NCBI RefSeq assembly: GCF_001307805.1
Contig: NZ_CP013862.1
Span: forward strand, 3,224,001-3,288,000
Reading direction: 5' to 3'
Source: Lentibacillus amyloliquefaciens
GTDB lineage: Bacteria > Bacillota > Bacilli > Bacillales > Amphibacillaceae
DNA length: 64,000 bases
Under the pieces are notes generated by a model. The model saw only the letters and a program-made list of their open reading frames with translations. It ran no database searches and was not told the DNA's origin. The position numbers and the translations under genes are program-made. Of this stretch, positions 20,515 through 40,338 are shown piece after piece (position 1 is the first letter of the stretch; every line of letters starts with the position of its first letter).

Positions 20515-20539
20515 AATTTCCGAAAGTGAGCTGATAGCA

Positions 20540-21211: not shown

Positions 21212-21216
21212 ATACC

Positions 21217-21243
21217 GGGACATGGGGTCTGACCCCATGTCCC
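21217..21243. repeat. Perfect palindrome (GGGGTC/GACCCC class)
   Basis: Thirteen-nt arms GGGACATGGGGTC and GACCCCATGTCCC flank a single T, directly after the deoC stop codon. There is no T run. Related GACCCC motifs occur at 57039-57080 and 57467-57480, so this appears to be a small dispersed palindrome rather than a terminator. Confidence 0.7.
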
Positions 21244-21262
21244 ACAAGAAAAGAGGGTTAAT

Positions 21263-21418: not shown

Positions 21419-21442
21419 CCAGAATTTGAAAGGGTGATAGAA

Positions 21443-22796: not shown

Positions 22797-22859
22797 TTGA
22801 CGCAGGGAAGAATACACTTTATGATATATTACAAAAGTAACATTAAAAAACAAATGTAA
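22797..22859 (+). promoter_or_regulatory. Promoter of sorC-1 with SorC-type operator (site A)
   Basis: TTGACG (22797-22802), a 17-nt spacer and TATGAT (22820-22825). Just downstream, 22829-22859 has outer arms TTACAAAAGTAAC and GAACAAATGTAA-like (AACAAATGTAA). It differs from the site at 32241-32271 at only three of 31 positions. The placement fits autoregulation. Confidence 0.75.
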
Positions 22860-23892: not shown

Positions 23893-24951
23893 TTAAACAA
23901 GCTTTCGATCTCGCTCGCCTGGCTTCACGACACATTTCAGTCCTTCTTTGCTGAGTGCCGTTTGGAATGCTTTTTCCGTATCCTCTAATGTAAATGTATG
24001 CGTTATAAATGATGAAAAGTCAAGCAGACCTTCGTCAATCCATTTCACAGCTTCCATGTGAAGATACCGCGGTGCACCGTGCGTTCCGACCACTTTCAAT
24101 TGTTTATATATAAAATGGTTGGTGTTAATTGGATTTTCAGTCACCGGTTTAATCCCGGCGAACAATAACACTTTACCGGTAGTGCGTGCGACTTCCAGCG
24201 ATTCGCGCTGTGCATCCGCAGACGGGGCGGTGACGATAACGGTATCAGCTCCGAGTCTGTCTGTTGCCGCTTTTACTTTTTCTGTGGTATTTTCAGCCGA
24301 TGGGTCAATCACCAAGTCAGCCCCGGCTTCTTTCGCTTTTTGCTGCCGGGTTTTAGAACGCTGGACAGCGATGACTTTGGCGGCTCCCATTCGTTTTAAA
24401 GCAGCGATGTACATGCAGCCGATAGCGCCTGCTCCGTAGACGACCACTGTTTCACCAGGCTTGGTGCCCACTTCATCCAACCCGCTGAGCACACAGGAAA
24501 AAGGTTCAGATAAACTGGCAAGCTCGTATGACGTTGCATCAGCAATTTTTTGAATTGATCCGTTCTGCACGAATTTTTTTGGAAGCACGACGTATTCTGC
24601 AAAACCGCCGTCTGCCTGATAACCCATTGAATGGCCTTTGATACAGTGATGGCCTTCGTTCTGCTGGCAATAAATACATTCGCCGCACGGGATATGCGCA
24701 CCGAGTGTTACTCTGTCACCGGGCTTAAAACGCGTCACCCGCTCACCTGTTTCCACGACTTCTCCGGCAATCTCATGCCCAATAACACGCGGGTAATCAA
24801 TCCGGTCATCGCCATGGTTGTAAACTCTCAAATCTGAGCCACACACACCGATGGCATGCACTTTTAATAAGATTTCATCCTGATTAATAGCCGGAACGTC
24901 ACGTTTTTGTAGTTCCAATTGCTGTTTGCCGGTCAGGGCGATTGCTTGCAT
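23893..24951 (-). CDS. Zinc-dependent dehydrogenase, MDR family (third in window)
   Basis: A 352-aa protein. The ATG at 24951 (MQAIALTG) has AAGGGGG upstream; the frame open to 24975 has no site. Zinc ligands are in GVCGSDLRVY and IGHEIAGEV, the structural zinc in CGECIYCQQNEGHHC, and the NAD loop is VVYGAGAIGCMY. Its start lies 24 nt after the GlpD-like gene, so both form one operon with the SorC-type operator at 26695. It probably oxidises a polyol or polyol phosphate. Confidence 0.87.
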   Translation of the reverse strand: MQAIALTGKQQLELQKRDVPAINQDEILLKVHAIGVCGSDLRVYNHGDDRIDYPRVIGHEIAGEVVETGERVTRFKPGDRVTLGAHIPCGECIYCQQNEGHHCIKGHSMGYQADGGFAEYVVLPKKFVQNGSIQKIADATSYELASLSEPFSCVLSGLDEVGTKPGETVVVYGAGAIGCMYIAALKRMGAAKVIAVQRSKTRQQKAKEAGADLVIDPSAENTTEKVKAATDRLGADTVIVTAPSADAQRESLEVARTTGKVLLFAGIKPVTENPINTNHFIYKQLKVVGTHGAPRYLHMEAVKWIDEGLLDFSSFITHTFTLEDTEKAFQTALSKEGLKCVVKPGERDRKLV

Positions 24952-24975
24952 AGACTTTTTCCCCCTTAAGATCAA

Positions 24976-26627
24976 TTATTCCTGCTGAAATGTTAATGCT
25001 TTCTCAATGAGATATTCCATATTGCCCACCTGCTTTTGCCTTGTTTCAAAGTCCCATTCGAGCGCTGACTGCATTTCATCGGCTGCCGTTTCCATTGTCC
25101 GCCTTACTTTATCAAGGTCGAATAATAGATAGCTTGTGCGCCGGTCATAAAAATCAGCAAGTGATGCAGCCATTTCATATTCAACAGCGTATCGTGCCTC
25201 GGCAGCTACATTGCGCTGTTCATCATCGTTGTACAGGTCATCGAAATCTTTAATTATTTTTAAAATTTTTTCTGTATTGCTTCCATACCGTGTTACATAC
25301 GCTTGAATGATTTCTTTGGTCAGTCGCAAGTGACTGTATTGTTCATGCAGTTGATCAATCAGTGCTGTCATGTCTTTTTTGGATGTGAAATTGCCGCCCG
25401 AAAATTTCACACGGTCAGTATTTGAAGGCGTTGGTTTTTGTTTCTCGCGCTTCTCAATGTATTGCATGACGCGCTCAGCCATTTTGCGATAGCCGGTAAG
25501 TTTGCCCCCGGCAATCGTAATTAAACCGCTGTCGGATTCAAAAATCTCATCATGCCGTGATAGCTCGGATGGTTTATCCCCGTCTTTGCCAATCAATGGT
25601 CTGACACCTGCCCAGCTTGATGTGACATCATCGACGCCCAAGTCCAGCGATGGGAAAATGGCATGCAAACAGTCTAGCAAATAGTCTGCTTCTGCACGTT
25701 TGACATGAATATCATCCATATTGTCATGATAGAGTGATTCCGTTGAACCGACGAACGTCTTGTCACCTCTTGGAATGACAGCAATCATGCGCCCTTTATG
25801 CTGAAAGTAAGTGGATGAGGCGACAGGCAGCTTGTCATAATCGAAAACAATATGAATCCCTTTGGCGAGCACCATATATTTTCCGGTGACAGGCCGGTCT
25901 TTTTCGCGTACTTTATCAACCCATGGCCCAGCTGCGTTGACGACGTGTGTCGCCTGGATTGTGAATGATTGTTCGCCGATCCGATCGCGAGCAACGACAC
26001 CTTTGATCCGGTTGTTTTCATCTTTTAATACATCGGTCATTTCTGCATAATTCAGAATCGAAGCGCCTTTTTCAGCAGCAGTTTTGGCTGCTTCCATCGT
26101 CAGCCGGCTGTCATCTGTCCGGTATTCAACATAGATGCCGCTTCCTTTGACTGTTTTTGGGTTAAATAATGGCTCCCGCTTTAATGTTTGCCGTTTTGTG
26201 TATAGTTTGTGGCGTTCGGGTTTTTCGACGCCTGCGAGCCGGTCATAAACCGTGAGGCCAGCTTTTAATGTCGCTAAGTTGTAGGATTCTTTTTTGACAA
26301 TTGGAAAATTCATGTTAATCGGGTAGACAAGGTGACGTGCATTGTTATAAACAATTGCCCGTTCTTGACCCGTTTCTCGCACCACAGGGAAATCTAGTTT
26401 TTGAAGATATTTAAGCCCGCCGTGAATGAGCTTGCCGGAGCGGCTGCTCGTGCCGGATGCGAAGTCTTTTCGCTCAATTAAAGCCACATTCATCCCCGTG
26501 TTGCGGCATCGAGAGCGATTCCGCTTCCGGTAATGCCGCCCCCAATAACTAATACATCAAAGTGCTCCTTTTCCATTTCCGTTATGGCCGTACTTCGGAT
26601 AGTAGAAGAAAATGTGCTGTTCCCCAT
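24976..26627 (-). pseudogene. glpD: Aerobic glycerol-3-phosphate dehydrogenase-like flavoprotein, frameshifted
   Basis: The N-terminus starts at the ATG at 26627 (GGGGTG upstream) and carries the FAD motif DVLVIGGGITGSGIALDAATRG. It meets a stop near 26493. The frame starting there continues MNVALIERKDFASGTSSRSGKLIHGG. One base added to the G run (about 26494-26500) joins them into about 551 aa, the normal GlpD length. The body has GPWVDKV, FVGSTESLYH, SSWAGVRPLI and GGKLTGYRKMAE. GlpD oxidises glycerol 3-phosphate to DHAP and passes electrons to quinone. EryB of Brucella is a related polyol-phosphate enzyme, and the operon context favours a similar role. Confidence 0.85.
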
Positions 26628-26694
26628 TTTTACACCCCATCTGTTTTACTTTTTGTCTGAAGATGCCGGCTTGAGCCAGCAAAGAATTAGTAGT

Positions 26695-26768
26695 TTACAA
26701 TTGTAATCTATCAAATCATTTGTAAAAGCTTGTAATTTTAGTATATTGCTTTTAAAATAGTAAGTCAA
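26695..26768 (-). promoter_or_regulatory. Promoter of the glpD-like operon with SorC-type operator (site E)
   Basis: On the minus strand TTGACT (26763-26768), a 17-nt spacer and TATACT (26740-26745). Downstream of the -10, at 26695-26725, lies a 31-bp site whose plus-strand arms are TTACAATTGTAA and CATTTGTAA. It has the same length and outer arms as sites A and D. Confidence 0.72.
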
Positions 26769-26835
26769 TAAAGGGCTTACATATTAATAGTTTTGAAACA
26801 TCAACAACGATTGGAAACGTCAGGGGGGAAAAGTA

Positions 26836-27792
26836 ATGACAACCACGATAAAAGAACGCCAGCTCATGGAGAAAGTTTCTAAATTGTATTATCTCGAAGG
26901 TTGGACGCAAAACCAGATTTGCAAAAAGGTCGGCTTATCAAGACCGATTGTTTCCAAATTACTGAAACAAGCGCGCGAAAAAAATATCGTTGAAATCCAT
27001 CTAAAAGATGAGACCGTTCATACTGTTGAATTGGAACGACTGCTCGAAAAACAATACGCGTTGACCGAGGCTATTGTTGTTTCAGATTCAGATGAATTTC
27101 CCGGTGCAACACGCAGAGCCGTGGGCGAAGCTGCATCAGCTTATTTAAGGAATAAGCTGCCGAACATTCAAACGCTCGGAGTATCATGGGGGAAAACGAT
27201 ACGAACGATGGTTGAAAGGTTTCAGGGCGTTGAACAGTCGCACGTCCACTTAGTTCCGTTAATCGGGGGAATGGGCCAAAGTCATGTTGAATACCATTCA
27301 AACCAGCTTGCATTTCAGCTTGCCCGAAAGCTTAATGCAAGTTCTTCTTATGTTTACGCCCCGGCTTTTGCAGATAATAAAGAAATGAAAGCACAGCTCA
27401 TCAAATCTAAGGATGTTACAGCTATTATGAAGGAAGGGGAAAAAATTGATTTTGCCATTGTGGGGGTCGGAAGTGTCACGCGTGAGACAACGGGAATTGA
27501 AATGGGTTATATGAACGAAACCGACATCCAATCATTGGAAGCCTCGGGTGCGAAGGGTGATCTCAACTCATGGTTTTTTGATGATGATGGAAATGAAGTC
27601 AATCATTCTATCAACGACCGTATTATTGGTGCAAACCTTGATAGAATCAGGGAAATCCCTGAGGTGATGGCGCTTGCTGAAGGCGAACATAAAGTATCCA
27701 GTTTACATACCGCTTTGCGTGCAGGACTCGTCAATAGTTTAGTGACGGATGAACGGACTGCGGCAAGTCTAGTAAAAGGGTTCGGCGATTAG
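26836..27792 (+). CDS. SorC/DeoR-family sugar-responsive transcriptional regulator (paralogue 2)
   Basis: A 318-aa protein preceded by AGGGGGG. HTH YYLEGWTQNQICKKVGLSRPIVSKLL (about residues 18-44), then a SorC sugar-binding domain (TLGVSWGKTIRTMVERF, PLIGGMGQSHVEYHSNQLAF). It is highly similar to paralogue 1 over its whole length. It is divergent from the glpD-like operon and directly upstream of the glucitol-type PTS operon. It is the best candidate for the regulator of sites B to E; EryD, the Brucella erythritol regulator, belongs to the same family. Confidence 0.9.
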   Translation: MTTTIKERQLMEKVSKLYYLEGWTQNQICKKVGLSRPIVSKLLKQAREKNIVEIHLKDETVHTVELERLLEKQYALTEAIVVSDSDEFPGATRRAVGEAASAYLRNKLPNIQTLGVSWGKTIRTMVERFQGVEQSHVHLVPLIGGMGQSHVEYHSNQLAFQLARKLNASSSYVYAPAFADNKEMKAQLIKSKDVTAIMKEGEKIDFAIVGVGSVTRETTGIEMGYMNETDIQSLEASGAKGDLNSWFFDDDGNEVNHSINDRIIGANLDRIREIPEVMALAEGEHKVSSLHTALRAGLVNSLVTDERTAASLVKGFGD

Positions 27793-27817
27793 TCGCGAAA
27801 TTTTTTGACGAATTTTG

Positions 27818-27881
27818 TTGACAAATACCTGAAAGCGTTTTATTATTAGGTTTACAAAAGTTACGATTAAAACATTTGTAA
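27818..27881 (+). promoter_or_regulatory. Promoter of gutM-srlAE with cre-like site and SorC-type operator (site B)
   Basis: TTGACA (27818-27823), a 17-nt spacer and TATTAT (27841-27846). TGAAAGCGTTTTAT at 27830-27843 is a near-consensus cre overlapping spacer and -10. The operator 27852-27881 (arms TTACAAAAGTTAC and CATTTGTAA) lies just downstream. Induction by a sugar phosphate plus catabolite repression is expected. Confidence 0.82.
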
Positions 27882-27898
27882 AAAGAGGTGACAATAAC

Positions 27899-28297
27899 AT
27901 GTGGGGTACATTTATTATTGTATTTGCTTCAATCTGGGGCCTGCAGTTTCTGTTGACACATTTTCAGGTGAAACACTATCAATCTGAAATTAAGAAACTG
28001 AGTAAACGTGACAGTGGCTATTTGGGAACCGGTTATTATAAAAAGCGGTTTGGAACCGGAGCAATTATGCTTCTGGTGTGTGATGAAGATGGGTGGATTA
28101 CGGATGCGAAAGTGATGAAAGGGCTTACCGTTTTTGCCAGATTCAGAAATATGCAGAGGCTGATTGGCATGAAACTGGAAAATAGCAAATTGGCAGATTT
28201 TCTTCCAAAAAAGGAACAAATTGCCCTTACCAATGCGATTGACATGATAGAAAAAGAATTCAAAAAAAGAGAGGGGAATGAGGCATGGATTTCTTAG
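27899..28297 (+). CDS. gutM: Glucitol operon activator family protein GutM/SrlM
   Basis: A 132-aa protein with one N-terminal membrane-spanning segment (about residues 3-20) followed by a soluble domain (YYKKRFGTGAIMLLVCDEDGWITDAKVMKGLTVFARF), the GutM family pattern. AAGAGGTGA precedes the ATG. In E. coli SrlM is an auxiliary activator of sorbitol PTS genes; in Firmicutes its exact role is unclear. It overlaps srlA by 13 nt. It is the first gene of the glucitol-type PTS operon. Confidence 0.88.
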   Translation: MWGTFIIVFASIWGLQFLLTHFQVKHYQSEIKKLSKRDSGYLGTGYYKKRFGTGAIMLLVCDEDGWITDAKVMKGLTVFARFRNMQRLIGMKLENSKLADFLPKKEQIALTNAIDMIEKEFKKREGNEAWIS

Positions 28298-28827
28298 TCA
28301 CTCTGGCTGAAGGCTTTATAGGCATGTTCCAGGAAGGCGGGGACACCTTTATCGGCCTCGTCACCGATATTATTCCATTACTGATTGCTTTGATCACAGC
28401 AGTTAACGCTGCAATTAAATTTGTTGGAGAAGAAAGGGTTTTCAACTTTGCCCAAAAATGTACAAAATATTTTTTCTTAAGATATACAATTTTCCCTTTC
28501 CTGGCCGTATTTTTCTTGACGAACCCAATGTGTTATACATTCGGCCGTTTCTTGCCGGAACACAAAAAGCCGGCTTTCTATGATTCAACGGTATCGTTTG
28601 TACACCCGGTTACAGGTCTTTTTCCGCATGCGAATCCGGCTGAACTATTCGTCTATACAGGTATAGCCGCCGGAATTACAGACCTTGGCCTTTCAACAGG
28701 ACCATTGGCATTGAGGTTTTTGCTCGTCGGTATCGTTGTCATGTTACTGAGAGGTGTTGTAACCGAGTTTATTACAGTCCGAATGATTAAAAACAGGGAA
28801 AGTCAAGCTGAAAATTCCGCAGCGTAA
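28285..28827 (+). CDS. srlA: PTS glucitol/sorbitol-type EIIC (C2-type) subunit
   Basis: A 180-aa membrane protein of the SrlA/GutA family, full length. Typical segments are IPLLIALITAVNAAIKFVGEER, FFLTNPMCYTFGRFLPEHKKPAFYDS and FPHANPAELFVYTGIAAGITDLG. It forms the membrane channel with SrlE. AGAGAGGGG precedes the ATG. It overlaps gutM and is followed by srlE after 26 nt. The transported polyol need not be sorbitol, because no sorbitol-6-phosphate dehydrogenase of the SrlD type follows. Confidence 0.93.
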   Translation: MDFLVTLAEGFIGMFQEGGDTFIGLVTDIIPLLIALITAVNAAIKFVGEERVFNFAQKCTKYFFLRYTIFPFLAVFFLTNPMCYTFGRFLPEHKKPAFYDSTVSFVHPVTGLFPHANPAELFVYTGIAAGITDLGLSTGPLALRFLLVGIVVMLLRGVVTEFITVRMIKNRESQAENSAA

Positions 28828-28853
28828 CGCAAGATCGATGAGGAGGTAAACAC

Positions 28854-29924
28854 ATGAGTGACTATAAAGCAGCAAAAGTTTCAAAAGGTGGCTCGGGCTG
28901 GGGCGGTCCATTAGTTATCCATCCTAAAGAAAGTCAAAAATATATCGTATCAGTAACCGGTGGCGGTATTCATCCGGTCGCCCAGGAGATAGCGGACAAA
29001 ACAGGCGGTATTGCGATTGACGGATTTGAGAAATCAGTCGAAAAAGAAGAAATGGCCTGTGCTGTTATTAATTGCGGAGGCACCGCAAGAAGTGGTGTCT
29101 ACCCAAAAATGGGTGTCCTGACGGTGAATGTATTCAGTAATTCACCATCAGGTCCACTGGCAAAATTTATAAAAGAAACAAATTTTGTATCTGGTGTTAC
29201 AACGGACAATGTTGAATTAGCTGATGGCTCTGAAGGAGAGAATCAGCCGGATCAAACGGAAGATGATTCAGGCGAAGCAGAACAGGATGCAAAAGGGTCA
29301 TTGCTGGATAAAGATGTTGCTAAAGAAACAAAAGAAGAAGCCAAGCAAAAAGTAGCAGCAAAAGAAGAAAGCAACGGCAAGAAAAAAAATCCTGTTATCC
29401 GACTTATTGAGTTCCTTGGTGATAAAGTCGGCTTTGTGGTCAGTACGTTTTTCCAGGCAGGCCGCGATACAATTGATACTGTTATCAAAAATATTTTACC
29501 ATTTATGGCATTCGTCAGTGTGCTGATGGGGATTATTACTTATACAGGGATCGGTGACCTGATCGCGAACTGGGTATCGCCACTGGCTGGGTCACTTACA
29601 GGTATGCTGATTCTTTCACTGATTTGTTCAATTCCGGTCATTTCACCGTTACTTGCACCGGGGGCTGTTATTGCTCAGGTTGTTGGTGTTCTGCTTGGTA
29701 CTGAAGTAGGAAGAGGAAATATCCCGCCACAGATGACATTGCCTGCACTATTTGCTATTAACCCGCAAGTCGGTACAGACTTTGTGCCGGTGGGATTGAC
29801 ACTTGGGGAAGCAAAGCCGGAAACAATCGAAGTAGGTGTGCCGGCGGTCCTTTTCTCAAGATTGGTGACTGGACCGCTCGCGGTTGTTATTGCTTACTTT
29901 GCAAGTTTCGGTCTTTATAGCTGA
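28854..29924 (+). CDS. srlE: PTS glucitol/sorbitol-type EIIBC subunit
   Basis: A 356-aa protein. The cytosolic EIIB part (about 1-130) has the phosphorylatable cysteine region CAVINCGGTARSGVYPK. A charged linker (about 130-185, rich in E, D and K) leads to a membrane EIIC part with about five helices (VLMGIITYTGIGDLIANWV, SPLLAPGAVIAQVVGV). The linker is longer and more acidic than usual. AGGAGG precedes the ATG. It works with SrlA and SrlB. Confidence 0.93.
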   Translation: MSDYKAAKVSKGGSGWGGPLVIHPKESQKYIVSVTGGGIHPVAQEIADKTGGIAIDGFEKSVEKEEMACAVINCGGTARSGVYPKMGVLTVNVFSNSPSGPLAKFIKETNFVSGVTTDNVELADGSEGENQPDQTEDDSGEAEQDAKGSLLDKDVAKETKEEAKQKVAAKEESNGKKKNPVIRLIEFLGDKVGFVVSTFFQAGRDTIDTVIKNILPFMAFVSVLMGIITYTGIGDLIANWVSPLAGSLTGMLILSLICSIPVISPLLAPGAVIAQVVGVLLGTEVGRGNIPPQMTLPALFAINPQVGTDFVPVGLTLGEAKPETIEVGVPAVLFSRLVTGPLAVVIAYFASFGLYS

Positions 29925-30056
29925 ACAGAATCGGGGTGTTAGCATCCGTTAACTTCCACCCCAGCCTATTTGTTTGACCTCATGTTTAGAGGTGGGAGTT
30001 CTACGGGCGCTTGCGCCGGGATAAAATTGCCCTCTTTTAAAAGAGAGGGCAACACA
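29925..30056 (+). other. Structured spacer between srlE and srlB
   Basis: TTGCCCTCTTT (30027-30037) pairs with AAAGAGAGGGCAA, a strong hairpin without a T run. Upstream, ACCTC and GAGGT with GGTGGGAGTTC resemble a right-end hairpin of IS200/IS605-type elements, but no transposase is near. A new promoter follows. Confidence 0.4.
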
Positions 30057-30099
30057 TTGCAACCAGTTTTACGTATGTTATAATATAGAACAAATGTAA
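30057..30099 (+). promoter_or_regulatory. Internal promoter of srlB with SorC-type half operator (site C)
   Basis: TTGCAA (30057-30062), a 16-nt spacer and TATAAT (30079-30084). GAACAAATGTAA at 30088-30099 matches the right arm of sites A and D; the left arm is degenerate. Confidence 0.6.
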
Positions 30100-30124
30100 A
30101 AACAACGAAAATGGAGGATTTCAT

Positions 30125-30490
30125 ATGTCAAATGCATATTACAGCGTTAACATCGTTGAAGTCGGAAGTGATGCGCCATTAATGACAGAAGAAGATATGG
30201 TCATTTTGTTTAATAATACAGTCCCGGCAGATTTAAAAAGCATTGCATTCGTGCATAACGGAGATACAATTTCTGAGGAAATAAAAGCAGGCGACAAGAT
30301 GGTAGTCGATGGGGAAGCTTTTGACATCTTATTCGTTGGCGACAAAGTCAATGATACGATGCACGACTTAGGCCACGCGACATTCCATTTTAACGGGGAG
30401 AACCATTCAGATCTGCCTGGAACAGTTTGTCTCGAGGCAAAACCAATCCCCGAAATCAGTGCCGATTCTGTTATTACATTTACAAGATAA
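30125..30490 (+). CDS. srlB: PTS glucitol/sorbitol-type EIIA subunit
   Basis: A 121-aa cytosolic phosphocarrier of the SrlB family. The candidate active histidines are in MHDLGHATFHFNGE near residues 79-87. ATGGAGG precedes the ATG. It is separated from srlE by 200 nt with its own promoter and followed 39 nt later by the COG4091-type oxidoreductase, so those two are probably co-transcribed. A solo GCTGGGACAAAA repeat end lies in that 39-nt gap. Confidence 0.92.
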   Translation: MSNAYYSVNIVEVGSDAPLMTEEDMVILFNNTVPADLKSIAFVHNGDTISEEIKAGDKMVVDGEAFDILFVGDKVNDTMHDLGHATFHFNGENHSDLPGTVCLEAKPIPEISADSVITFTR

Positions 30491-30529
30491 AGTTAAGCTG
30501 GGACAAAATTACACGAGGAGTGAGTCATC

Positions 30530-31816
30530 ATGTTGGGTATTAATCGTAAACTAGCAAACTTTGAAAAATCAGATTCATACATTAAGGTCGGCCTTGTTGG
30601 GGCGGGACAGATGGGAAGAGGGATGATTTCCCAGATTGAGAGCATGAAAGGCATGCGTGTAGTCATTACAGCTGATTTAGCTATCGAGAATGTCAAAAAC
30701 GCTTATGAAAATGCGGGAATTGACGCAGCAAATATTGTGGAAACCGATGAATTGGAAAAAGCACATGCGGCAGTCAGTCAGGATAAGGTCATTGCAACGA
30801 AAGACAGTAAACTAGTTACAGCCCTTTCAGAAGTAGATGTTGTGGTTGATGCAACCGGTGTACCGAATATCGGTGCTGAAATTGCATGGGACAGCATTTT
30901 GAATAACAAACATATTGTCATGCTGAATGTGGAAGCCGATGTTACGGTCGGCCCGTTATTGAAGAAAATGGCTGATTCCAGCGGCGTTGTCTATACAGGG
31001 TCTGCAGGGGATGAACCCGGGGCCATCATGGAGTTATATGACTTTGCCGATGCTATGGGCTTTGAAATTGTTGCATTAGGAAAAGGCAAAAACAATCCAT
31101 TGAATCTGGAATCCAACCCCGATGTCACTGCAGAAGAAGCGGAGCAAAAAGGATCGAGTCCGAAAATGCTGGCATCATTCCAGGATGGCACGAAAACAAT
31201 GGTTGAAATGAACTGTGTTGCGAATGCGACCGGGTTTGCACCTGATCAGCCGGGCATGCACGGTTTTGAAGGTAAAGTGGCTGATCTTCCAGGCATCTTT
31301 ATTGAAAAAGACAAAGGTGGAGAATTGAACGGCCGTCAAGTCGTTGATTTTGTTAACGGAATCGCACCTGGTGTCTTTGCGATTATTGCTTCTGATAAAG
31401 CAGAAGTAAACGCAGAAATGAAATATTTGAAGATGGGTGACGGACCAAACTATGTGCTTTACCGCCCATATCATCTGACAAGCCTGGAAACACCACTATC
31501 CATTGCCAAAGCTTATTTTGATAAAGAACCGACCATTGCGCCGCACTATGGCTTGCAGGGTGAAACAGTCGCAGTTGCTAAGAAAGATTTGGCTGAAGGC
31601 GACTATCTGGATGGGATTGGCGGCTATTCAGTCTACGGTAAATTGTATAAAGTTGAGGAAGCCAAGGCGGAAAACGCTATGCCTGTCGGACTGGTGGATG
31701 GCAACGTGAAATTAACAAAAGCCGTTAAAAAAGGCGACGTTATCACTTATGACGCTGTCGAACAGACTAAAGAGTCAACCATCTGGAAACTGCGTGCGCT
31801 TCAGGATAAACAGTAA
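30530..31816 (+). CDS. COG4091/DRL-type NAD(P)-dependent oxidoreductase with SAF domain
   Basis: A 428-aa protein. The N-terminal Rossmann fold (VGLVGAGQMGRGMIS, residues 20-34) is homoserine-dehydrogenase-like. The family-typical SAGDEPGAIMELYDFADAMGFEIVALGKGKNN-type block lies near residues 163-195, and a SAF domain near 350-420. From memory, this family includes the DXR-like enzyme DRL of Brucella, which interconverts DXP and methylerythritol 4-phosphate. It occupies the place of a sugar-phosphate dehydrogenase in a glucitol-type PTS operon. MEP-to-DXP conversion is therefore a specific hypothesis. Other polyol-phosphate oxidations remain possible. Confidence 0.8.
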   Translation: MLGINRKLANFEKSDSYIKVGLVGAGQMGRGMISQIESMKGMRVVITADLAIENVKNAYENAGIDAANIVETDELEKAHAAVSQDKVIATKDSKLVTALSEVDVVVDATGVPNIGAEIAWDSILNNKHIVMLNVEADVTVGPLLKKMADSSGVVYTGSAGDEPGAIMELYDFADAMGFEIVALGKGKNNPLNLESNPDVTAEEAEQKGSSPKMLASFQDGTKTMVEMNCVANATGFAPDQPGMHGFEGKVADLPGIFIEKDKGGELNGRQVVDFVNGIAPGVFAIIASDKAEVNAEMKYLKMGDGPNYVLYRPYHLTSLETPLSIAKAYFDKEPTIAPHYGLQGETVAVAKKDLAEGDYLDGIGGYSVYGKLYKVEEAKAENAMPVGLVDGNVKLTKAVKKGDVITYDAVEQTKESTIWKLRALQDKQ

Positions 31817-31835
31817 TAACTGAACAGCGGTCTTT

Positions 31836-32150
31836 GCCAGGTGAGTTCTTTCTTGGAGGTTTGTTTTTACTGAGACAAAATGGCAGGATTGATTTCCTCT
31901 CCGGGCAGTCGCGCGCCTTAGGGCAACGCTTTAACTTCCTCGGAAGCAAAGGCATAGGTGAGACCCCCAATGCGCTAGCATGCAGGGGATCACCAGCCGC
32001 CCGCGAAAAGCGACGAGCAAAACATCCACCGAGTTTAGCTGCGAGTTGCGAGGAGTGCGGCTCCACCGATTTTGCTTGCAATACGACGAGCACCCAAGTA
32101 TATTTCCGGAGCGGTGTCATAGCAAGTAGCCGTAATACACATCGACTGTA
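31836..32150. repeat. Degenerate copy of the GGCTGGGACAAAA-type element, inverted
   Basis: The stretch carries GGCATAGGTGAGACCCC, then CACCAGCCGCCCGCGAAAAG and TATATTTCCGGAGCGG. These are the reverse complement of core pieces in 42985-43223 (TTTCCGCGGGCGGCTGGT, GTCTCACCTATGCC). The ends are worn; ACTGAGACAAAA near 31871 may be one. No gene is in the roughly 470 nt between the oxidoreductase and acoA. Confidence 0.6.
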
Positions 32151-32207
32151 AGCTATAAAATCTACAAAAATAGCCCTTTTGAAAATCAGGCGGGCAGGCA
32201 ATTTAAT

Positions 32208-32271
32208 TTGACCCGACTGTGGAATCGTTTTATAATATAATTACAAAAGTAACAATAAAGAACAAATGTAA
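32208..32271 (+). promoter_or_regulatory. Promoter of the aco-type operon with cre-like site and SorC-type operator (site D)
   Basis: TTGACC (32208-32213), a 17-nt spacer and TATAAT (32231-32236). TGGAATCGTTTTAT (32220-32233) is cre-like, with the same TTTTAT end as the site at 27830. The operator 32241-32271 (TTACAAAAGTAAC ... AACAAATGTAA) nearly equals site A. This links the dehydrogenase complex to the PTS regulon. Confidence 0.82.
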
Positions 32272-32287
32272 AGAAGGAGTGGGCATA

Positions 32288-33277
32288 ATGGAATTGACAA
32301 AAGATGTGACGCTCGTCCCTGATGTCAGTCAGGATAAATTGGTAGATTTGTATAAACAAATGTGGGTTATCCGGTTCTTTGATGAAAAAGTGGATGAGTT
32401 TTTCGCCAAAGGTATGATCCACGGCACGACCCACTTGGCGGTTGGCCAGGAAGCAAGTGCTGCGGGAGCTTGTGCGCTGCTCGACAATGAGGATAAGATT
32501 ACCAGTACACACCGCGGGCATGGGCATTGTATCGCTAAAGGTGCAACCCCTGACAAAATGATGGCGGAATTGTTCGGCCGTACCACGGGATACTGCAAAG
32601 GCAAAGGCGGATCGATGCACATTGCCGACATTGATATCGGCAACCTTGGTGCAAATGGCATCGTAGCAGGCGGCATTCCGCTTGCGGTGGGTTCAGCGCT
32701 GACTGCAAAAATGAAAAAGCATGACTATGTAACAGTTTGCTTTTTCGGCGATGGTGCAACAAACGAAGGAAGTTTTCATGAAGCGGTAAACCTGGCTTCA
32801 ATCTGGGATCTGCCCGTTATTTTTGTATGTGAAAATAACTTGTATGGCATGTCCGGGAATGTAAATGAAATGACAAATGTCAAAAACATTGCTGACCGTG
32901 CTGCAGCATATGGCATCCAGGGTGCTGTAGCTGATGGCAACGACATTGTCGACATGATGAATAAAACAAATGATGCAGTTGACCGTGCACGCAATGGAGA
33001 GGGACCGTCATTGATCGAAGCGAAAACCTACCGCTGGAAAGGTCACTCGAAAAGTGATGCGAAGAAGTACCGCACACGTGAAGAAGAAAACGAATGGAAA
33101 GCAAAAGATCCAATCAAACGATTCAGAGAAGTGCTTATAGAAGCTGATATCTTAACGGAAGAAAAGGCAGAAGAAATCCGTAAAGCTGCTAAAAAAGAAA
33201 TTGAAGATGCGGTTGAATTTGCTGAAAACAGTCCAATGCCGACTGAAGATGACTTACTGACGGATGTTTACGCATAG
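32288..33277 (+). CDS. acoA: Acetoin dehydrogenase-type E1 component, alpha subunit
   Basis: A 329-aa ThDP-dependent subunit (ATG 32288, AGAAGGAG upstream). STHRGHGHCIAKGATPDKMMAE, FGRTTGYCKGKGGSMHIAD and the ThDP motif FFGDGATNEGSFHEAVNLA are closest to AcoA proteins rather than pyruvate dehydrogenase E1. AcoA/AcoB cleave acetoin to acetaldehyde and a hydroxyethyl-ThDP that becomes acetyl-CoA. No acetoin regulator (AcoR) is present. The promoter carries the SorC-type operator, so a different ketol, such as DXP, is a plausible substrate. Confidence 0.9.
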   Translation: MELTKDVTLVPDVSQDKLVDLYKQMWVIRFFDEKVDEFFAKGMIHGTTHLAVGQEASAAGACALLDNEDKITSTHRGHGHCIAKGATPDKMMAELFGRTTGYCKGKGGSMHIADIDIGNLGANGIVAGGIPLAVGSALTAKMKKHDYVTVCFFGDGATNEGSFHEAVNLASIWDLPVIFVCENNLYGMSGNVNEMTNVKNIADRAAAYGIQGAVADGNDIVDMMNKTNDAVDRARNGEGPSLIEAKTYRWKGHSKSDAKKYRTREEENEWKAKDPIKRFREVLIEADILTEEKAEEIRKAAKKEIEDAVEFAENSPMPTEDDLLTDVYA

Positions 33278-33289
33278 GAGGGAACCATG

Positions 33290-34273
33290 ATGAGAGAGAT
33301 TACCTATTCAGAAGCAGTACGCGAAGCATTGAGCCAGGAAATGCGCAAAAATGATGATGTTTTTATTTTAGGGGAAGATATCGGTGTTTATGGTGGTGCG
33401 TTCGGTGTGACACGCGGCATGATTGAGGAATTCGGTCCCGACCGCATCCGCAACACCCCAATCAGTGAATCCGGTATCGCCGGGGCGGCGGTCGGATCGG
33501 CACTGACAGGTATGCGCCCAATTGCTGAACTGCAGTTTTCCGATTTCATTACGATTGCTCTGGATCAGATGGCCAACCAGGCAGCTAAAATTCGTTATAT
33601 GTACGGCGGAAAAGGCAAGGTGCCGATGGTTTTACGAACACCAAGTGGTTCCGGTACAGGTGCCGCTGCCCAGCATTCTCAAAGTCTTGAAGCATGGGTG
33701 GCGCATGTTCCCGGTCTAAAGGTAGTTCAGCCATCGACAGGCTATGATGCTAAAGGACTTTTGAAAGCAGCCATTGATGATGACAACCCGGTCATTTTTT
33801 ACGAGCACAAAACGCTTTATGGCACGAAATCCGATGTGCCTGAAGAGCAATACAGCATTCCGCTCGGACAAGCTGACATCAAACGTGAAGGAACAGATGT
33901 TACGATTGTTGCCTATGCCGTCATGGTGCCGCGTGCACTAGAAGCAGCTAAGGAACTGGAGAAAGAAGGCATCAGTGTTGAAGTGGTCGACCCGCGTACT
34001 TTGGTGCCGCTTGACAAAGAAACAATCGTGAAATCCGTTTCCAAAACCGGACGGGTTGTAGTTGCGCATGAAGCGGTCAAACGCGGCGGCTACGGCGGTG
34101 AAATCGCCAGCATGATTGCAGAAAGTGATGCATTTGACTTCCTAGATGCACCAATCAAACGACTGGGTGGTGCTGAATCGCCAATTCCTTACAATCCTGA
34201 ATTGGAAAAAGCCCATGTACCGCAAGTACCCGATATGATTAAAGCCGTAAAAGAAACGCTGAATAAAGCGTAA
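33290..34273 (+). CDS. acoB: Acetoin dehydrogenase-type E1 component, beta subunit
   Basis: A 327-aa partner of the alpha subunit with transketolase-like pyrimidine and C-terminal domains. Motifs: [36 protein letters not shown] (catalytic glutamate region), [18 protein letters not shown] and [21 protein letters not shown] 33290 is preferred over the adjacent ATG 33287 because GGAGGG is then 7 nt away. It lies 12 nt after acoA. Confidence 0.92.
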
Positions 34274-34286
34274 GGGGGGTTCTGAA

Positions 34287-35639
34287 ATGGCTAAAGAAGT
34301 ATTTATGCCGAAACTCAGCAGTACCATGGACGAGGGTACTTTGCTGGAATGGTTTAAAGAAGAAGGCGACCCGGTAGAAGTCGGGGAACCGATATTTGAA
34401 ATCATGACCGACAAAATCAACATTGAAGTTGAATCCTATGAAGAAGGCGTTCTGCTGAAACGTAATTATGACGTTGATGCTGAAATCCCTGTCAACGCCG
34501 TCATTGGCTATGTCGGCGAAGAAGGCGAAGACGTGCCTGAGAATCCTCCTGAAGCTGGAGCGAATGACAGTAAAGGTGCTCAAGCAGGATCTGGTGAGGA
34601 TGCTGGTCAAACCGGCGCACCAGCGGCTGAAGAGAGAGGCTCTGACGACGTTCAGGATGACACAGAAGGCGAAAAAGTGCGTGCAACCCCTGCAGCCAGA
34701 CGTGTTGCCCGCGAAGAAAATGTTAACCTTGCCTCTGTTCAGGGCTCCGGGCCAAAAGGACGCCGCCATGAACAGGATATGAAAGATGCACTCGACAGCA
34801 CGAAAGCCACACCGCTTGCCGGTAAAATTGCCGGTGACCAGGGCGTTGATCTCGCAGAAGTTGAAGGTTCAGGTGCTCATGGCAAAGTGCGCAAAGATGA
34901 CGTATTGCAGCACACAACACCAGCGGCCGCACAAAGCGCACCGGATGAAGATGCCGAGCGCATTAAGCTGAAAGGTCTGCGTAAAGCTGTTGCCGATAAA
35001 ATGGTTCAAAGTACCAGCGAGATTCCGCATGTCACATTGACGAGCGACGTCGACATGACGCATGTCATCGATGTGCGCAAGACACTGCTTCCGATTATCG
35101 AAAAGCAAACCGGCTACAGAGTTTCGTATACTGAAATTTTGATAAAGGCTGTATCACAGCTCATGGACGCACACCCACGGGTTAACGCGTCACTTGAAGG
35201 CAACGAGATTGTGCTTAACAAATCTGTTAATATCGGACTCGCTGTTGCGGTTGAAGATGGCTTAATCGTGCCATCTGTTAAAGATGCGGATAAGAAAGGG
35301 CTCGCCCAATTGACCAAAGTAAGCAAAACGCTTGGTCAAAAGGCACGCGATAACAAACTGACACCTGACGAAATGACCGGCAACACATTCTCCATCAGCA
35401 ACCTGGGCATGTATGCGATTGACAGTTTCACACCGATTATTAACCCGCCGGAAACAGCCATTCTCGGGGTCGGCCGCATTGTCGAAAAACCGGTTGTTAT
35501 CGACGGTGAAATCGAAGTCCGGCCAATGATGGCACTCAGCCTGTCATTCGACCACCGGGCAATCGATGGTGCTCCGGCGGCAGCATTCCTGACCGACTTG
35601 AAAGAGCGGCTGGAAAATCCATACGGCCTGTTGATATAA
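34287..35639 (+). CDS. acoC: Dihydrolipoamide acyltransferase (E2) with two E3-binding domains
   Basis: A 450-aa protein. One lipoyl domain (1-80) has the lipoylated K43 in MTDKINIEVES. An acidic linker leads to a first peripheral subunit-binding domain (131-168, RATPAARRVAREENVNL) and a second (173-208, ATPLAGKIAGDQGVDLAEV). The catalytic core (about 225-450) contains FDHRAIDGAPAAAFL. It moves the acetyl group from E1 to CoA. AcoC-type E2 proteins usually have a single binding domain, so the pair is unusual. GGGGGG precedes the ATG. Confidence 0.92.
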   Translation: MAKEVFMPKLSSTMDEGTLLEWFKEEGDPVEVGEPIFEIMTDKINIEVESYEEGVLLKRNYDVDAEIPVNAVIGYVGEEGEDVPENPPEAGANDSKGAQAGSGEDAGQTGAPAAEERGSDDVQDDTEGEKVRATPAARRVAREENVNLASVQGSGPKGRRHEQDMKDALDSTKATPLAGKIAGDQGVDLAEVEGSGAHGKVRKDDVLQHTTPAAAQSAPDEDAERIKLKGLRKAVADKMVQSTSEIPHVTLTSDVDMTHVIDVRKTLLPIIEKQTGYRVSYTEILIKAVSQLMDAHPRVNASLEGNEIVLNKSVNIGLAVAVEDGLIVPSVKDADKKGLAQLTKVSKTLGQKARDNKLTPDEMTGNTFSISNLGMYAIDSFTPIINPPETAILGVGRIVEKPVVIDGEIEVRPMMALSLSFDHRAIDGAPAAAFLTDLKERLENPYGLLI

Positions 35640-35651
35640 GGGGTGAACACG

Positions 35652-37043
35652 ATGAAATCTTATAATCTCGCAATTATCGGGGCTGGTCCCGGCGGCTATG
35701 TCGCAGCCATCAGGGCGGCAAAAGAAGGCTTAAGTGTCGCTCTGGTCTCCGGGGATGATCTAGGCGGAACATGTCTCAACCGCGGCTGCATTCCTTCCAA
35801 GACAATGCTGAAACATGCCGAGGTTATCGAAGACATTAAAGGTGCCAAGACATACGGGATCACCGTTAATGACTTTTCCTTTTCCATTAAGGATATGGTC
35901 GGCCGGAAAACGAAAGTCGTTAAAACATTGAAAAACGGCATCAAAGGCTTGATGAAGCAAAATAAAATTGAAGTCTTCAGCGGCATCGGTTCCGTCCAAG
36001 AAGATAAGACAGTGATCATTGCGTCCAACGGCGGCACAGAGACGATTCAAGCTGACAATGTGATGCTCGCGAATGGCTCAAAACCGCTCGTTCCGCCACT
36101 CCCTGGCATTGACGACATCGGATATTATACGAGTGATACGATTTTTGATATTGAAGAGGTTCCAGCCCATATGGTGATTATGGGCGGCGGCGTCATCGGA
36201 CTCGAAATCGCCTGTATTTTCAATAGCCTTGATACAAAAGTGGAAATCGTCGAAATGGCCGACCGGATCTTGCCAACTGAAGATCCGGATGCTTCGGATT
36301 ACTTGAAGCGTGAATTGAGTAAAAAGGGCATCGGTATCCAGACGGGTGCTAAAATTACCGGCTTCAGCAAGAACGGTCAGAAGACAACTGTGGACGTGGA
36401 GACATCAGATGGTAATAAAAACACAATCGAAACAGACAGCGTGCTTGTTGCCGTCGGACGTCAGCCTAACCTGACCGGCATTGACAATCTGGGGGTTACA
36501 TTTGACGGTAAATTTGTCAAAGTCGATCAGAACTTACAGACATCCGCAGCTGGCATCTACGCGATTGGTGACTTGATTGGCGGCTACCAGTTCGCACACG
36601 CCGCAAGCGATGAAGGTATCAGAGCCGTGACTCATATCGCTGGGAAAGCAGGGCATGGGTCGCAGCCGGAGTCGACGATCCCGCGCTGCGTTTATACATT
36701 TCCGGAAGTCGCGAGCGTCGGCATGACAGAAGCCCAAGTTAAAGAGAAAGGCTACCGCGTCAAAACGAAAAAAGTCGACATCGCTGCTAACGGTAAAGCA
36801 ATCGCAGCCGGCGAAACAAGCGGCTTCATGAAACTAATTTCAGAAGAGAAATACGGCGAAGTGCTCGGCGTCGTCATGGTCGGCGCCCACGTCACCGAAA
36901 TGATTAGCCAGGCAACCGCCTACATGCATCTCGAAGGAACCGCTGAAGAGCTTGACAGCATGGTATTCCCACATCCAACGGTATCAGAAGCCTTGGGTGA
37001 AGCCGGAAGCGTATGGCTGGAAAAAGGTATACATTACAGTTGA
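35652..37043 (+). CDS. acoL: Dihydrolipoamide dehydrogenase (E3)
   Basis: A 463-aa FAD disulfide oxidoreductase. The FAD motif IIGAGPGGYVAAIRA is at residues 8-22, the redox disulfide C41-x4-C46 in GGTCLNRGCIPSK, the NAD motif VIMGGGVIGLEIA near 180, and the C-terminal HPTVSEALGEA carries the catalytic His/Glu. ATG 35652 is chosen (GGGGTGA upstream) over the GTG at 35643. It re-oxidises the lipoamide of the E2. It is the last gene of the operon, followed by a clear terminator. Confidence 0.93.
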   Translation: MKSYNLAIIGAGPGGYVAAIRAAKEGLSVALVSGDDLGGTCLNRGCIPSKTMLKHAEVIEDIKGAKTYGITVNDFSFSIKDMVGRKTKVVKTLKNGIKGLMKQNKIEVFSGIGSVQEDKTVIIASNGGTETIQADNVMLANGSKPLVPPLPGIDDIGYYTSDTIFDIEEVPAHMVIMGGGVIGLEIACIFNSLDTKVEIVEMADRILPTEDPDASDYLKRELSKKGIGIQTGAKITGFSKNGQKTTVDVETSDGNKNTIETDSVLVAVGRQPNLTGIDNLGVTFDGKFVKVDQNLQTSAAGIYAIGDLIGGYQFAHAASDEGIRAVTHIAGKAGHGSQPESTIPRCVYTFPEVASVGMTEAQVKEKGYRVKTKKVDIAANGKAIAAGETSGFMKLISEEKYGEVLGVVMVGAHVTEMISQATAYMHLEGTAEELDSMVFPHPTVSEALGEAGSVWLEKGIHYS

Positions 37044-37058
37044 TATAGTTGATGAGGA

Positions 37059-37089
37059 GGTTTTCAGCAGAGGCTGAAAACCTTTTTTT
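37059..37089 (+). terminator. Rho-independent terminator after the aco-type operon
   Basis: GGTTTTCAG pairs perfectly with CTGAAAACC, followed by a seven-T run. Confidence 0.92.
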
Positions 37090-37149
37090 GAATTGATGCA
37101 GCGCGGTGTTAACTTTGGCTTGATGAGATTTGTGCTGGGTGTGGGCTGG

Positions 37150-37358
37150 AACGAGCGAGAGTGTGGTCGAGACGAGCGAGGGCGGGATTGAAACGAGCGG
37201 CAAGGGCCCCGGAACGAGCGAGAGCAGGGTCAAAATGATTCAACACGCGGTCTGAAACGGGCGAGAGCATCACCGAAACGAGCGACACACAACTCCAAAA
37301 AGAGCAATAATTACTCAAACTGGTGCAGGAAAGCCTTGAGCTTGTGGGAGAACAGTCC
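37150..37358. repeat. 21-bp tandem repeat array 1
   Basis: About ten degenerate units with ACGAGCGAG-type cores starting at 37151, 37172, 37193, 37214, then (after one extra base) 37257 and 37278, fading into GTGCAGG-type units. The period is 21 bp, each unit having a conserved half of about 12 nt and a variable half. It fills the gap between the aco terminator and the NERD gene; no gene seen. Confidence 0.75.
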
Positions 37359-37490
37359 CGCCGTATCCTTAAGAAAAGGACATACCCATCTGAAAAGTTG
37401 ATTTTCGACTCATGCTGAAAATTTATACACTTTTGCCTTCCAATATGCTATATTAATAACAATCCAAAAACTAAATAAAGGAGCAAAACG

Positions 37491-38444
37491 ATGATAATAA
37501 GAAACCGCCCAAAACCCCTTCCACTAAGAAATCTTGATGCAGCCATCCCACGACTCCCACCAACGTTTCCGAATCTCCCCAGAATGCAAGAAGATGTCAA
37601 AAAGCAACAGCAAGGCTATTCAGGCGAAAAAAAGATAGACTATTTTCTTGATAACCTCGCACCCATGTACACAATCCTTCACGATGTTTATCTCCGTGAG
37701 AATAACAAAAACTTTCAAATAGACTCCCTGGCTATTGCTAATCACTCCATTTTCATGATTGATTCCAAAAATTATAACGGAACCATTTCGTTTAATACCA
37801 CCCTCCGGCAGCTCACCCGCTCTGACGGCAAACTCGAGTCAGGCTTTGAAAATCCCATTACTCAGATTAAAAATCAAAAATTCCATCTGCAAAATTGGCT
37901 CAAGGAGCGTAACTTGGGGCATATTCCGGTAAAATGCTTTGTAGCAATTGCTGATCCGTCGACTGTTGTGCGGGTAGAAGGCAGCGAGGACGAGGTCAGT
38001 CAATATGTCGTTCATGCCGCTGAACTCCCCGAGCGAATAATGAACGCCGATCAGCAATACCGCAATAAAGGCGCGCGGAAGCTCCCAGACTATCAAATCG
38101 GCAAGACCATGCTGAGCGAATGTGGTGAATTTGATATTGATATATTCAAAAAATATGGCATGCGACTGGCGAACATATTACCTGGTGTCATCTGTCCTGG
38201 TTGTGGGCTGCGGGGGATGAAACGAATACATAGCGGGTGGTGGTGCCGTAAATGTCAGCAAAAACATTATCATGCGCATTGGCAAGCACTTGCTGATTAT
38301 TTACTGCTGGTGAAAAATACAATAACGAACAAAGAATGTATGTGGTTTTTAGGCTTGAATAAAAGAGGAACTGCAACAAGAATCCTTAAGAAAAGCGGAT
38401 TGACGTATGATGATAAATATAGATGCTGGTATAAAAAGAAATAG
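37491..38444 (+). CDS. NERD-domain (nuclease-related) protein
   Basis: A 317-aa protein with AAAGGAG upstream. The NERD domain (about residues 40-150) shows the nuclease-like pattern GEKKIDYFL, then FQIDSLAIANHSIFMIDSKNYNG (D...D-x-K). The C-terminus has a zinc-finger-like pair CPGCG and CRKCQ (about 235-260), then a helical tail. The domain is related to restriction-enzyme-like nucleases but its biochemical role is mostly unproven. It lies between two 21-bp repeat arrays and belongs to no neighbouring pathway. Confidence 0.82.
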   Translation: MIIRNRPKPLPLRNLDAAIPRLPPTFPNLPRMQEDVKKQQQGYSGEKKIDYFLDNLAPMYTILHDVYLRENNKNFQIDSLAIANHSIFMIDSKNYNGTISFNTTLRQLTRSDGKLESGFENPITQIKNQKFHLQNWLKERNLGHIPVKCFVAIADPSTVVRVEGSEDEVSQYVVHAAELPERIMNADQQYRNKGARKLPDYQIGKTMLSECGEFDIDIFKKYGMRLANILPGVICPGCGLRGMKRIHSGWWCRKCQQKHYHAHWQALADYLLLVKNTITNKECMWFLGLNKRGTATRILKKSGLTYDDKYRCWYKKK

Positions 38445-38453
38445 ACATATGAT

Positions 38454-38483
38454 GATTTTCGGCTGTGCCGAAAATCTTCTTTT
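38454..38483 (+). terminator. Rho-independent terminator after the NERD gene
   Basis: GATTTTCGGC pairs with GCCGAAAATC around TGT, followed by TTCTTTTT. Confidence 0.88.
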
Positions 38484-38507
38484 TACATCTGCCATCCTGT
38501 TGAGGCA

Positions 38508-38705
38508 ATCGAGTGAGAGCGTCATCAGAACGAACGACGCGCCAATCATTTCGAGCGGGGATGGCACCAAAACGAGCGGCAGAGGACCCGAATCGAGCGA
38601 GAGCGTCATCGGAACGAGCGACGCACCAATCAAAACGAGCGAAAACGCCACCGAACCGAGCGACAATCCACCATGAACGAGCGAGAGCCGGCAGTTCGCC
38701 GGCTC
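38508..38705. repeat. 21-bp tandem repeat array 2
   Basis: Nine units in exact 21-bp register (38508, 38529, 38550 and so on) with core CGAGCGA or CGAACGA. Units 1-2 and 5-6 are near copies (GAGAGCGTCATCRGAACGA), showing block duplication. The last unit runs into a hairpin GAGCCGGC/GCCGGCTC at 38685-38705. It lies between convergent genes. Confidence 0.8.
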
Positions 38706-38717
38706 CCCCTGCAACAG

Positions 38718-40328: not shown

Positions 40329-40338
40329 GTGATCACCT

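Follow-up and report, generated by a model that had tools for sequence, protein, structure and literature searches.

We analysed a window of 64,000 nucleotides from Lentibacillus amyloliquefaciens (contig NZ_CP013862.1, positions 3,224,001 to 3,288,000; coordinates below are those of the window), whose genome is a single contig of 3.86 Mb. The window carries a gene cluster (26836-37043) made up of a SorC regulator, the glucitol-type phosphotransferase system (PTS) genes gutM-srlA-srlE-srlB, an oxidoreductase of the DRL/DXR-II type (DRL below) and AcoABCL-type genes for a thiamine-dependent dehydrogenase complex, with every frame open. Judged from sequence comparison, the cluster is likely to serve the inducible catabolism of a 2-C-methyl tetritol, with 2-C-methyl-D-erythritol the best candidate. 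It would be degraded via methylerythritol 4-phosphate (MEP) and 1-deoxyxylulose 5-phosphate (DXP), a reversal of the opening steps of bacterial isoprenoid synthesis.

Gene content of the cluster

All genes of the cluster lie on the + strand. SorC1 (26836..27792), a SorC/DeoR-type regulator with a sugar-binding domain (PF04198, 245 bits), precedes gutM (27899..28297; PF06923), srlA for glucitol-type PTS IIC (28285..28827; PF03608, with NF049923 above cut-off), srlE for IIB/C (28854..29924; PF03612 and PF07663, with NF049924 above cut-off) and srlB for IIA (30125..30490; PF03829 above cut-off, under the NCBIfam cut-offs). The DRL gene (30530..31816) follows, and then acoA for E1 alpha (32288..33277; PF00676, 300 bits), acoB for E1 beta (33287..34273; PF02779, PF02780), acoC for the E2 acyltransferase (34287..35639; PF00198, PF02817, PF00364) and acoL for the E3 dihydrolipoyl dehydrogenase (35652..37043; TIGR01350, 538 bits). 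As E2 has lipoyl, E3-binding and acyltransferase domains and E3 scores above the dihydrolipoyl dehydrogenase cut-off, the complex looks complete. We took the ATG at 32288, preceded by AAGGAG, as the start of acoA; the start in the open reading frame (ORF) list, 32219, is an upstream GTG.

An earlier note on this DNA, made by reading the sequence, had described these genes in this order and the absence of an SrlD-type sorbitol-6-phosphate dehydrogenase. Pfam and NCBIfam matches bore out the first point, all genes being present and intact. On the second, no PF00106 match was found among 22 window proteins (15132-41586) scanned with Pfam, the remaining genome not being searched. With no SrlD-type dehydrogenase in view, a sorbitol operon was rejected.

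The oxidoreductase belongs to the DXR-II clade

The DRL protein matched PF21135 (DRL_cat) at 224 bits against a cut-off of 27, and scored 343 bits to the PDB entries 3upl and 3upy, in the case of 3upy over residues 2-427. The latter is Brucella DXR-II (PMC3847144). That paper defines a DXR-II clade in which 11 tested members were functional, whilst 4 tested DLO members failed. In Brucella numbering, the window protein retains Pro118, Gly121, Tyr161, Glu174, Phe178, Lys191, Lys193, Thr229, His250, Arg320 and Tyr322. Lys191, Lys193 and Thr229, which contact the substrate, and Arg320 were present in all DRLs linked to aco genes (54/54), and Thr229 was replaced by Val in 6/6 DLO-like sequences.

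A quick tree with 114 rows placed the six DLO-like sequences beyond a branch at 100, with Brucella DRL on the window protein's side. This tree merged identical rows, took in 28 named loci picked for spread from the best 80 of at least 585 confirmed, and did not include the 130 sequences of PMC3847144; like the E1 tree described below, it carried long-branch warnings. The earlier note had proposed a DRL-type reaction for the COG4091-type oxidoreductase and suggested tree placement as a check. Both the score to 3upy with the retained substrate residues and the position inside the DXR-II clade agree with that proposal. Named relatives at 89% identity or more came from three Lentibacillus (94, 90 and 89%) and Virgibacillus ihumii (90%). 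The protein P0029 (BH0774) was 70% identical, and by counting accessions we infer that it is the B. halodurans entry in the table of PMC3847144.

Isoprenoid biosynthesis in the host and other DRL genomes

We searched 397 genomes of the order for PF21135, finding a match in 59 and a strong match (E <1e-50) in 40. The host genome gave no match for Dxr (TIGR00243) or IspH (PF02401), searches for which were positive in control genomes; DXS, IspD, IspE, IspF and IspG were not searched. It encodes two HMG-CoA reductases (PF00368). Thus, DRL cannot serve isoprenoid synthesis in this host, and a biosynthetic role there was rejected.

Across the 40 strong-DRL genomes, 35 had Dxr above cut-off and the identical 35 had IspH; the Dxr copy of G254 contains an internal stop (handles beginning with G and L are ours, for genomes and loci). 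The five without either (the host, G292, G373, G150 and G201) all have HMG-CoA reductase, and G348 has Dxr, IspH and HMG-CoA reductase together. In 16 further genomes IspH was matched in 11 and not in five, those of L278, L285, L209 (Lentibacillus halodurans) and L210 (Virgibacillus subterraneus) and G638; HMG-CoA reductase was present in all five. L278 and L285 are Chloroflexota metagenome-assembled genomes (MAGs) with DRL and with E1 and E2 genes of the type linked to DRL; because both are MAGs, the absence of IspH counts for less there.

Alternatively, DRL could provide MEP for making isoprenoids, as it does in Brucella, with its clustering incidental; in favour of this, E. coli deficient in Dxr is complemented by DXR-II proteins (PMC3847144). 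However, the host lacks matches to both pathway markers, five further genomes pair DRL with HMG-CoA reductase and no IspH match, and 35/40 DRL genomes of the order already have their own Dxr, so that we regard this explanation as highly improbable. The same paper describes two organisms in a similar position: Chloroflexus aurantiacus has the mevalonate (MVA) pathway only, yet its DXR-II works in complementation, and the DXR-II of Finegoldia magna is active although neither MEP nor MVA genes were found there. A catabolic role would explain both proteins.

DRL, PTS and aco genes are linked across genomes

With the window E1 alpha as query, 36 of the same 397 genomes gave a match of at least 69% identity; we refer to this as the DRL-linked E1 type. 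Matches at 62-66% identity (G210, G211 and one of G254) were assigned to neither E1 class. Strong DRL and the DRL-linked E1 type occurred together in 35 genomes (of 40 and 36) against 3.6 expected (Fisher p 1e-43, relatedness ignored). Of 40 DRL loci from 39 genomes of the order, 36 had gut-PTS genes in view and 25 had Aco genes. The corresponding counts were 21 and 16 at 38 phylum-level DRL loci, and 50 and 28 at 79 named loci drawn from the best 80 of at least 585. These three sets overlap in organisms and their counts are not additive. Gene order varied, Aco genes lying downstream on the same strand in 11 of the 25 loci, upstream on the same strand in 11 and upstream on the opposite strand in 3. 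The earlier note had asked after the same gene set in other Bacillales, and these counts supply it. A chance neighbourhood of PTS-DRL and Aco genes was rejected on the excess of joint genomes and the varied gene orders.

PTS, DRL and Aco genes stand together in Bacilli, Thermoanaerobacter (L231), Thermovorax (L228), Acetobacterium (L240) and Chloroflexota (L278, L285), and in Tissierella (L235) with the Aco genes about 9 kb further on. Hakubella (L266, filed under Actinomycetota) has DRL, acoABC and a regulator with no PTS in view. SorC-type regulators are present at many DRL loci. An FGGY kinase (Pfam) follows DRL at L051, L058 and L221; an MFS transporter accompanies it at L051 (Pfam) and L058 (by likeness), the gut PTS not being in the fetched stretch of either. 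Kinase and transporter would be another route delivering a phosphorylated polyol. Four loci whose gene had no called ORF were left out as rows (DRL in L198 and L259, E1 in L127 and L208).

Several other arrangements were observed. At L180-L182, second DRL copies (G511, G544, G620) lie near transaldolase-like and PtsI-like genes, with a Gat-type PTS at L181-L182. PRD-type regulator-like and EIIA-like genes follow acoL at L035 (16292-18801) and L056 (1294-3707), from which gut-type and PRD/EIIA-linked PTS may sometimes be joined. A CxxC protein of about 110 aa is encoded in 20/40 order-level DRL regions (for example L053 10803-11150 and L109 16752-17081), one copy of which matched no Pfam family above cut-off; it was not among the listed window ORFs of at least 90 aa at 24000-41000.

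The E1 type stands apart from the acetoin-type clade

A quick tree of E1 alpha was built from 95 rows, 88 after merging identical sequences, the window E1 being represented by its 94%-identical L067 relative. One clade (SH-aLRT 97) united all 58 rows linked to DRL with a further 9 of that type and L117. A second clade (SH-aLRT 99) held 14 rows, of which 10 adjoin a sigma-54 activator (AcoR in acetoin dehydrogenase systems), and is referred to as the acetoin type; L133-L138 fell outside both. Among the further 9, L114-L116 are either no more than about 13 kb from DRL or next to gutM at a contig end, and L108 is on another contig. The remaining five are B. pumilus-like (a presumed label, for the genomes of L037-L040 and L042) and lie at least 233 kb from DRL or on another contig.

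The regulatory neighbourhoods of the two types differed as well. A sigma-54 activator motif was found near acetoin-type E1 at 10/14 loci, and near the DRL-linked type at none, in four overlapping sets (0/23 order-level, 0/9, 0/16 phylum-level, and 0/27 named loci from the best 80 of at least 585). None was detected among the 22 window proteins scanned.

Fixed residues also separate the classes, to neither of which L117 and L133-L138 were assigned. In AcoA, T47, S189, S254-K255-S256 and R262 are fixed in 67/67 sequences of the DRL-linked type and replaced in 14/14 of the acetoin type (by F, A, F-E-G and K, respectively); in AcoB, G33 is fixed in 65/65 and replaced by A in 14/14. The window proteins carry these signature residues. 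In an alignment to human pyruvate dehydrogenase (PDH) E1 (1ni4), K255 comes after the GHS of the active-site loop, at a position where PDH has Met, and T47 aligns to a Phe two residues before a shared conserved His. We suggest that a smaller residue and a lysine at these places could accommodate a phosphorylated substrate and bind it. With its separate clade, fixed residue differences, SorC-type sites (see below) and no sigma-54 activator, an ordinary acetoin dehydrogenase was rejected.

Shared operator-like elements

The earlier note had claimed SorC-type operators shared by the two operons. We found exact matches to TTACAAAAGTWAC-N6-9-ACAWWTGTAA on the + strand before gutM (27852..27881), before acoA (32241..32271) and before a second SorC gene (22829..22859). 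These three are the only exact matches in the genome, a reversed control giving none, so the claim holds. Scanning the window at 18/23 or better returned five places only (22829, 26695, 27852, 30069, 32241), all at the cluster; the two weaker elements, each 19/23, lie before srlB (30069..30099, +) and upstream of SorC1 on the side of a glpD-like gene (26695..26725, no strand assigned). The half-site with 0 mismatches marked the same three places in the window as the full exact element.

Across upstream regions of the order, with stretches under 120 bases excluded, a site of at least 18 preceded 18/22 DRL-linked E1 genes, 17/25 gutM genes and 0/14 acetoin-type acoA genes; 3/126 shuffled upstream regions scored as high. 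Such a site also stood before 9/9 further E1 genes of the DRL-linked type, five of which are at least 233 kb from DRL or on another contig. The sharing of this site by gutM and E1 genes across the order makes it probable that the PTS-DRL and aco operons belong to a single regulon there.

These results bear on whether the two operons belong together at all. Sorbitol uptake could simply stand next to an unrelated acetoin dehydrogenase, as the families taken singly, a sorbitol-type PTS and PDH/acetoin-dehydrogenase-like proteins, and the absence of another Aco-type E1 from the host would allow. Against this, DRL and the E1 type co-occur far above expectation in differing gene orders, operator-like sites are common to both operons, the E1 clade is separate from the sigma-54-linked type, which is present as well in 15 of these genomes, and the scanned window proteins include no short-chain dehydrogenase. 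We therefore consider unrelated neighbours very unlikely.

Proposed pathway

We infer a substrate, a reaction direction, a cleavage of DXP and an inducer, which together would give the following route. The glucitol-type PTS would import the polyol and phosphorylate methylerythritol to MEP. DRL would work in the oxidative, isomerising direction, converting MEP to DXP in the reverse of the Dxr reaction. In the AcoABCL-type complex, thiamine diphosphate on the acoAB-encoded E1 would attack the CH3-CO group of DXP with release of glyceraldehyde 3-phosphate, and the two-carbon unit would pass via lipoate to acetyl-CoA with formation of NADH, so that the bond made by DXS would be broken oxidatively. 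SorC-type regulators acting at the shared operators would switch on both operons, the inducer probably being a sugar phosphate (MEP or DXP). The predicted net reaction is methylerythritol + PEP + NADP+ (or NAD+) + NAD+ + CoA to pyruvate + glyceraldehyde 3-phosphate + acetyl-CoA + two reduced cofactors.

Precedent exists for thiamine E1 enzymes handling the bond broken in DXP. PMC3424233 describes a mutant, not wild-type, aceE (PDH E1) that produces DXP in vivo and so restores a strain deficient in DXS, and 1-deoxyxylulose formation by purified PDH; it also cites a 1986 paper that, going by its title, deals with how pyruvate and acetoin dehydrogenases form 1-deoxyketoses.

Weighing the proposed route

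A number of observations count against catabolism of methylerythritol through MEP and DXP and are collected here. The Dxr reaction is reversible with its balance towards MEP; removal of DXP through acetyl-CoA formation would draw it the other way. Within DRL, Val351 of Brucella is Gln in the window protein and likewise in BH0774, and His250, kept in the window protein, is found in only 38/54 Aco-linked DRLs and is Asn in BH0774. PMC3847144 gives Val351 as conserved in 'most' DXR-II members and His250 in all but four; as it says only 'most', Gln at this position does not exclude membership.

Linkage and control are likewise incomplete. Five DRL genomes of the order have no DRL-linked E1 type and G155 has the E1 type without DRL (at its locus L208 acoC, acoL and a SorC gene are visible). 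DRL also overlaps mildly with acetoin-type E1 (46-56% identity, 77 genomes), in 15 genomes against 7.8 expected (p 0.005); all 15 carry the DRL-linked type too. No Aco genes were in view at 15/40 order-level, 22/38 phylum-level and 51/79 named DRL loci (the last from the best 80 of at least 585); some of these loci end at a contig edge, and several of the genomes have E1 elsewhere. The operator-like site of at least 18 precedes DRL itself in just 10/40 order-level cases, and outside the order it seldom stands in front of an E1 gene (2/16). Allowing up to 2 mismatches, the half-site by itself occurs 7 times in the window against 3.3 expected, a count that 9/100 shuffles reach.

The specificity of the complex raises a further point. 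The host has no second Aco-type E1, the next best match being 36% identical, and the complex could thus also serve acetoin in this host. L117, whose E1 falls inside the DRL-linked clade, adjoins a sigma-54 activator. In 4/5 B. pumilus-like genomes (L109, L111-L113) the E1 operon stands with a SorC regulator, a PTS and other dehydrogenases, the latter two identified by Pfam around L109 as EIIA, EIIC-GAT, a zinc-type (MDR) dehydrogenase and two short-chain dehydrogenases. The fifth, L110, has the operon with a SorC gene only, and all five (L109-L113) have an operator-like site before acoA and the complex far from DRL. This pairing of the DRL-linked E1 type with a Gat-type PTS means that the complex may serve other substrates, and it may take 1-deoxyketose phosphates in general.

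L117 (about 3236-11919) was further observed to contain, beside the E1 complex (62-63% identity), a TRAP transporter (DctM), a short-chain dehydrogenase and the sigma-54 activator; this E1 type may have a third use there. Separately, L230, L244, L264, L282 and L288 show no Aco genes, and their DRL and gut PTS are accompanied by genes like TIM, class II aldolase and UPF0047 (YjbQ), family labels resting on Pfam for one representative each. Together with the many other DRL loci without Aco genes, this group indicates that DRL may feed more than one route.

The substrate may instead be another branched or 1-deoxy polyol such as 2-methylthreitol, a 1-deoxypentitol, a 1-deoxyhexitol or apiitol, with DRL acting as an isomerising or plain dehydrogenase and the complex cleaving a 1-deoxyketose phosphate. 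The Gat-type PTS and dehydrogenases of the four B. pumilus-like genomes, the TIM-, class II aldolase- and UPF0047-family genes at further DRL loci and the low identity between DRL subfamilies of the order (only about 47%) all point that way. On the other side, tested members of the clade work as DXR-II (PMC3847144), and the substrate-binding residues and Arg320 are invariant in Aco-linked DRLs. Apiitol phosphate would, by reasoning, yield xylulose 5-phosphate and require no acetyl-forming complex. We consider another polyol rather unlikely.

The methylerythritol route through MEP and DXP, as proposed in the earlier note, is thus largely supported at sequence level by the DXR-II clade membership, the absence of Dxr and IspH matches in the host, the non-acetoin E1, the shared operator-like sites and the co-occurrence, and is weakened in that not all DRL loci show Aco genes; its chemistry, with methylerythritol as PTS substrate and DXP as E1 substrate, is a prediction.

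Neighbouring genes

Divergent from SorC1 lie a glpD-like FAD oxidoreductase gene (24976..26493, -; PF01266, PF16901; true start probably further upstream) and a gene for an MDR dehydrogenase (23893..24975, -; PF08240, PF00107), with the weaker operator-like site at 26695 in between. The glpD-like gene is retained next to the regulator in L056, L062, L067, L209 and L210, and the MDR gene is retained with it. Both are possible accessory members; the glpD-like gene beside a regulator resembles EryB of erythritol catabolism in this respect. The second SorC gene (22894-23835) has the exact operator-like element at 22829 in front of it. Further upstream, a second polyol island (15132-22495) encodes a PRD/EIIA-type regulator, EIIA, EIIC-GAT, an MDR dehydrogenase, a DeoC-family aldolase and a second MDR dehydrogenase, possibly a pathway for a deoxy polyol.

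Significance

Methylerythritol is a sugar alcohol of isoprenoid metabolism, and methyltetrols are plant products and isoprene oxidation products. We found no report of this pathway in open-licence literature, most subscription journals being outside the search; a cloud-water paper (PMC6529453) names methyltetrols in a reference title only. A wider reading, possible though somewhat doubtful, is that the E1 type marks a dedicated 1-deoxyxylulose-5-phosphate dehydrogenase complex, distinct from acetoin dehydrogenase, and that DXR-II is catabolic at its root (in Bacillota, Chloroflexota and others), Brucella-like use for isoprenoids being a later recruitment. If so, methylerythritol would be an overlooked nutrient. 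The proposed pathway itself would add to those known a thiamine enzyme complex that breaks DXP, and would give free methylerythritol, perhaps with related methyltetrols, a route back into central metabolism. It would also explain what DXR-II does for organisms already equipped with Dxr or lacking the MEP pathway, a question left open by PMC3847144.

Comparison with known systems

The cluster resembles glucitol/sorbitol PTS operons in its PTS subunits and GutM, but has DRL in the place of the SrlD-type dehydrogenase. With erythritol catabolism (ery genes) it would share a polyol phosphate pathway; here phosphorylation would fall to the PTS, and DRL and the thiamine complex would follow. The complex is like acetoin dehydrogenase AcoABCL in its E1 alpha and beta, E2 and E3 families, with E1 alpha identities mostly of 49-55%, and differs from the sigma-54-linked enzyme in its separate E1 clade, its SorC-type operator-like sites and its lack of a sigma-54 activator. 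Brucella DXR-II (3upy) is similar to the window DRL over its full length, has the same substrate-binding residues and lies on the same side of the tree against the DLO-like outgroup. In contrast to the Brucella enzyme, the window DRL adjoins PTS and thiamine-complex genes in a host with no Dxr or IspH match, and is proposed to work in the oxidative direction.

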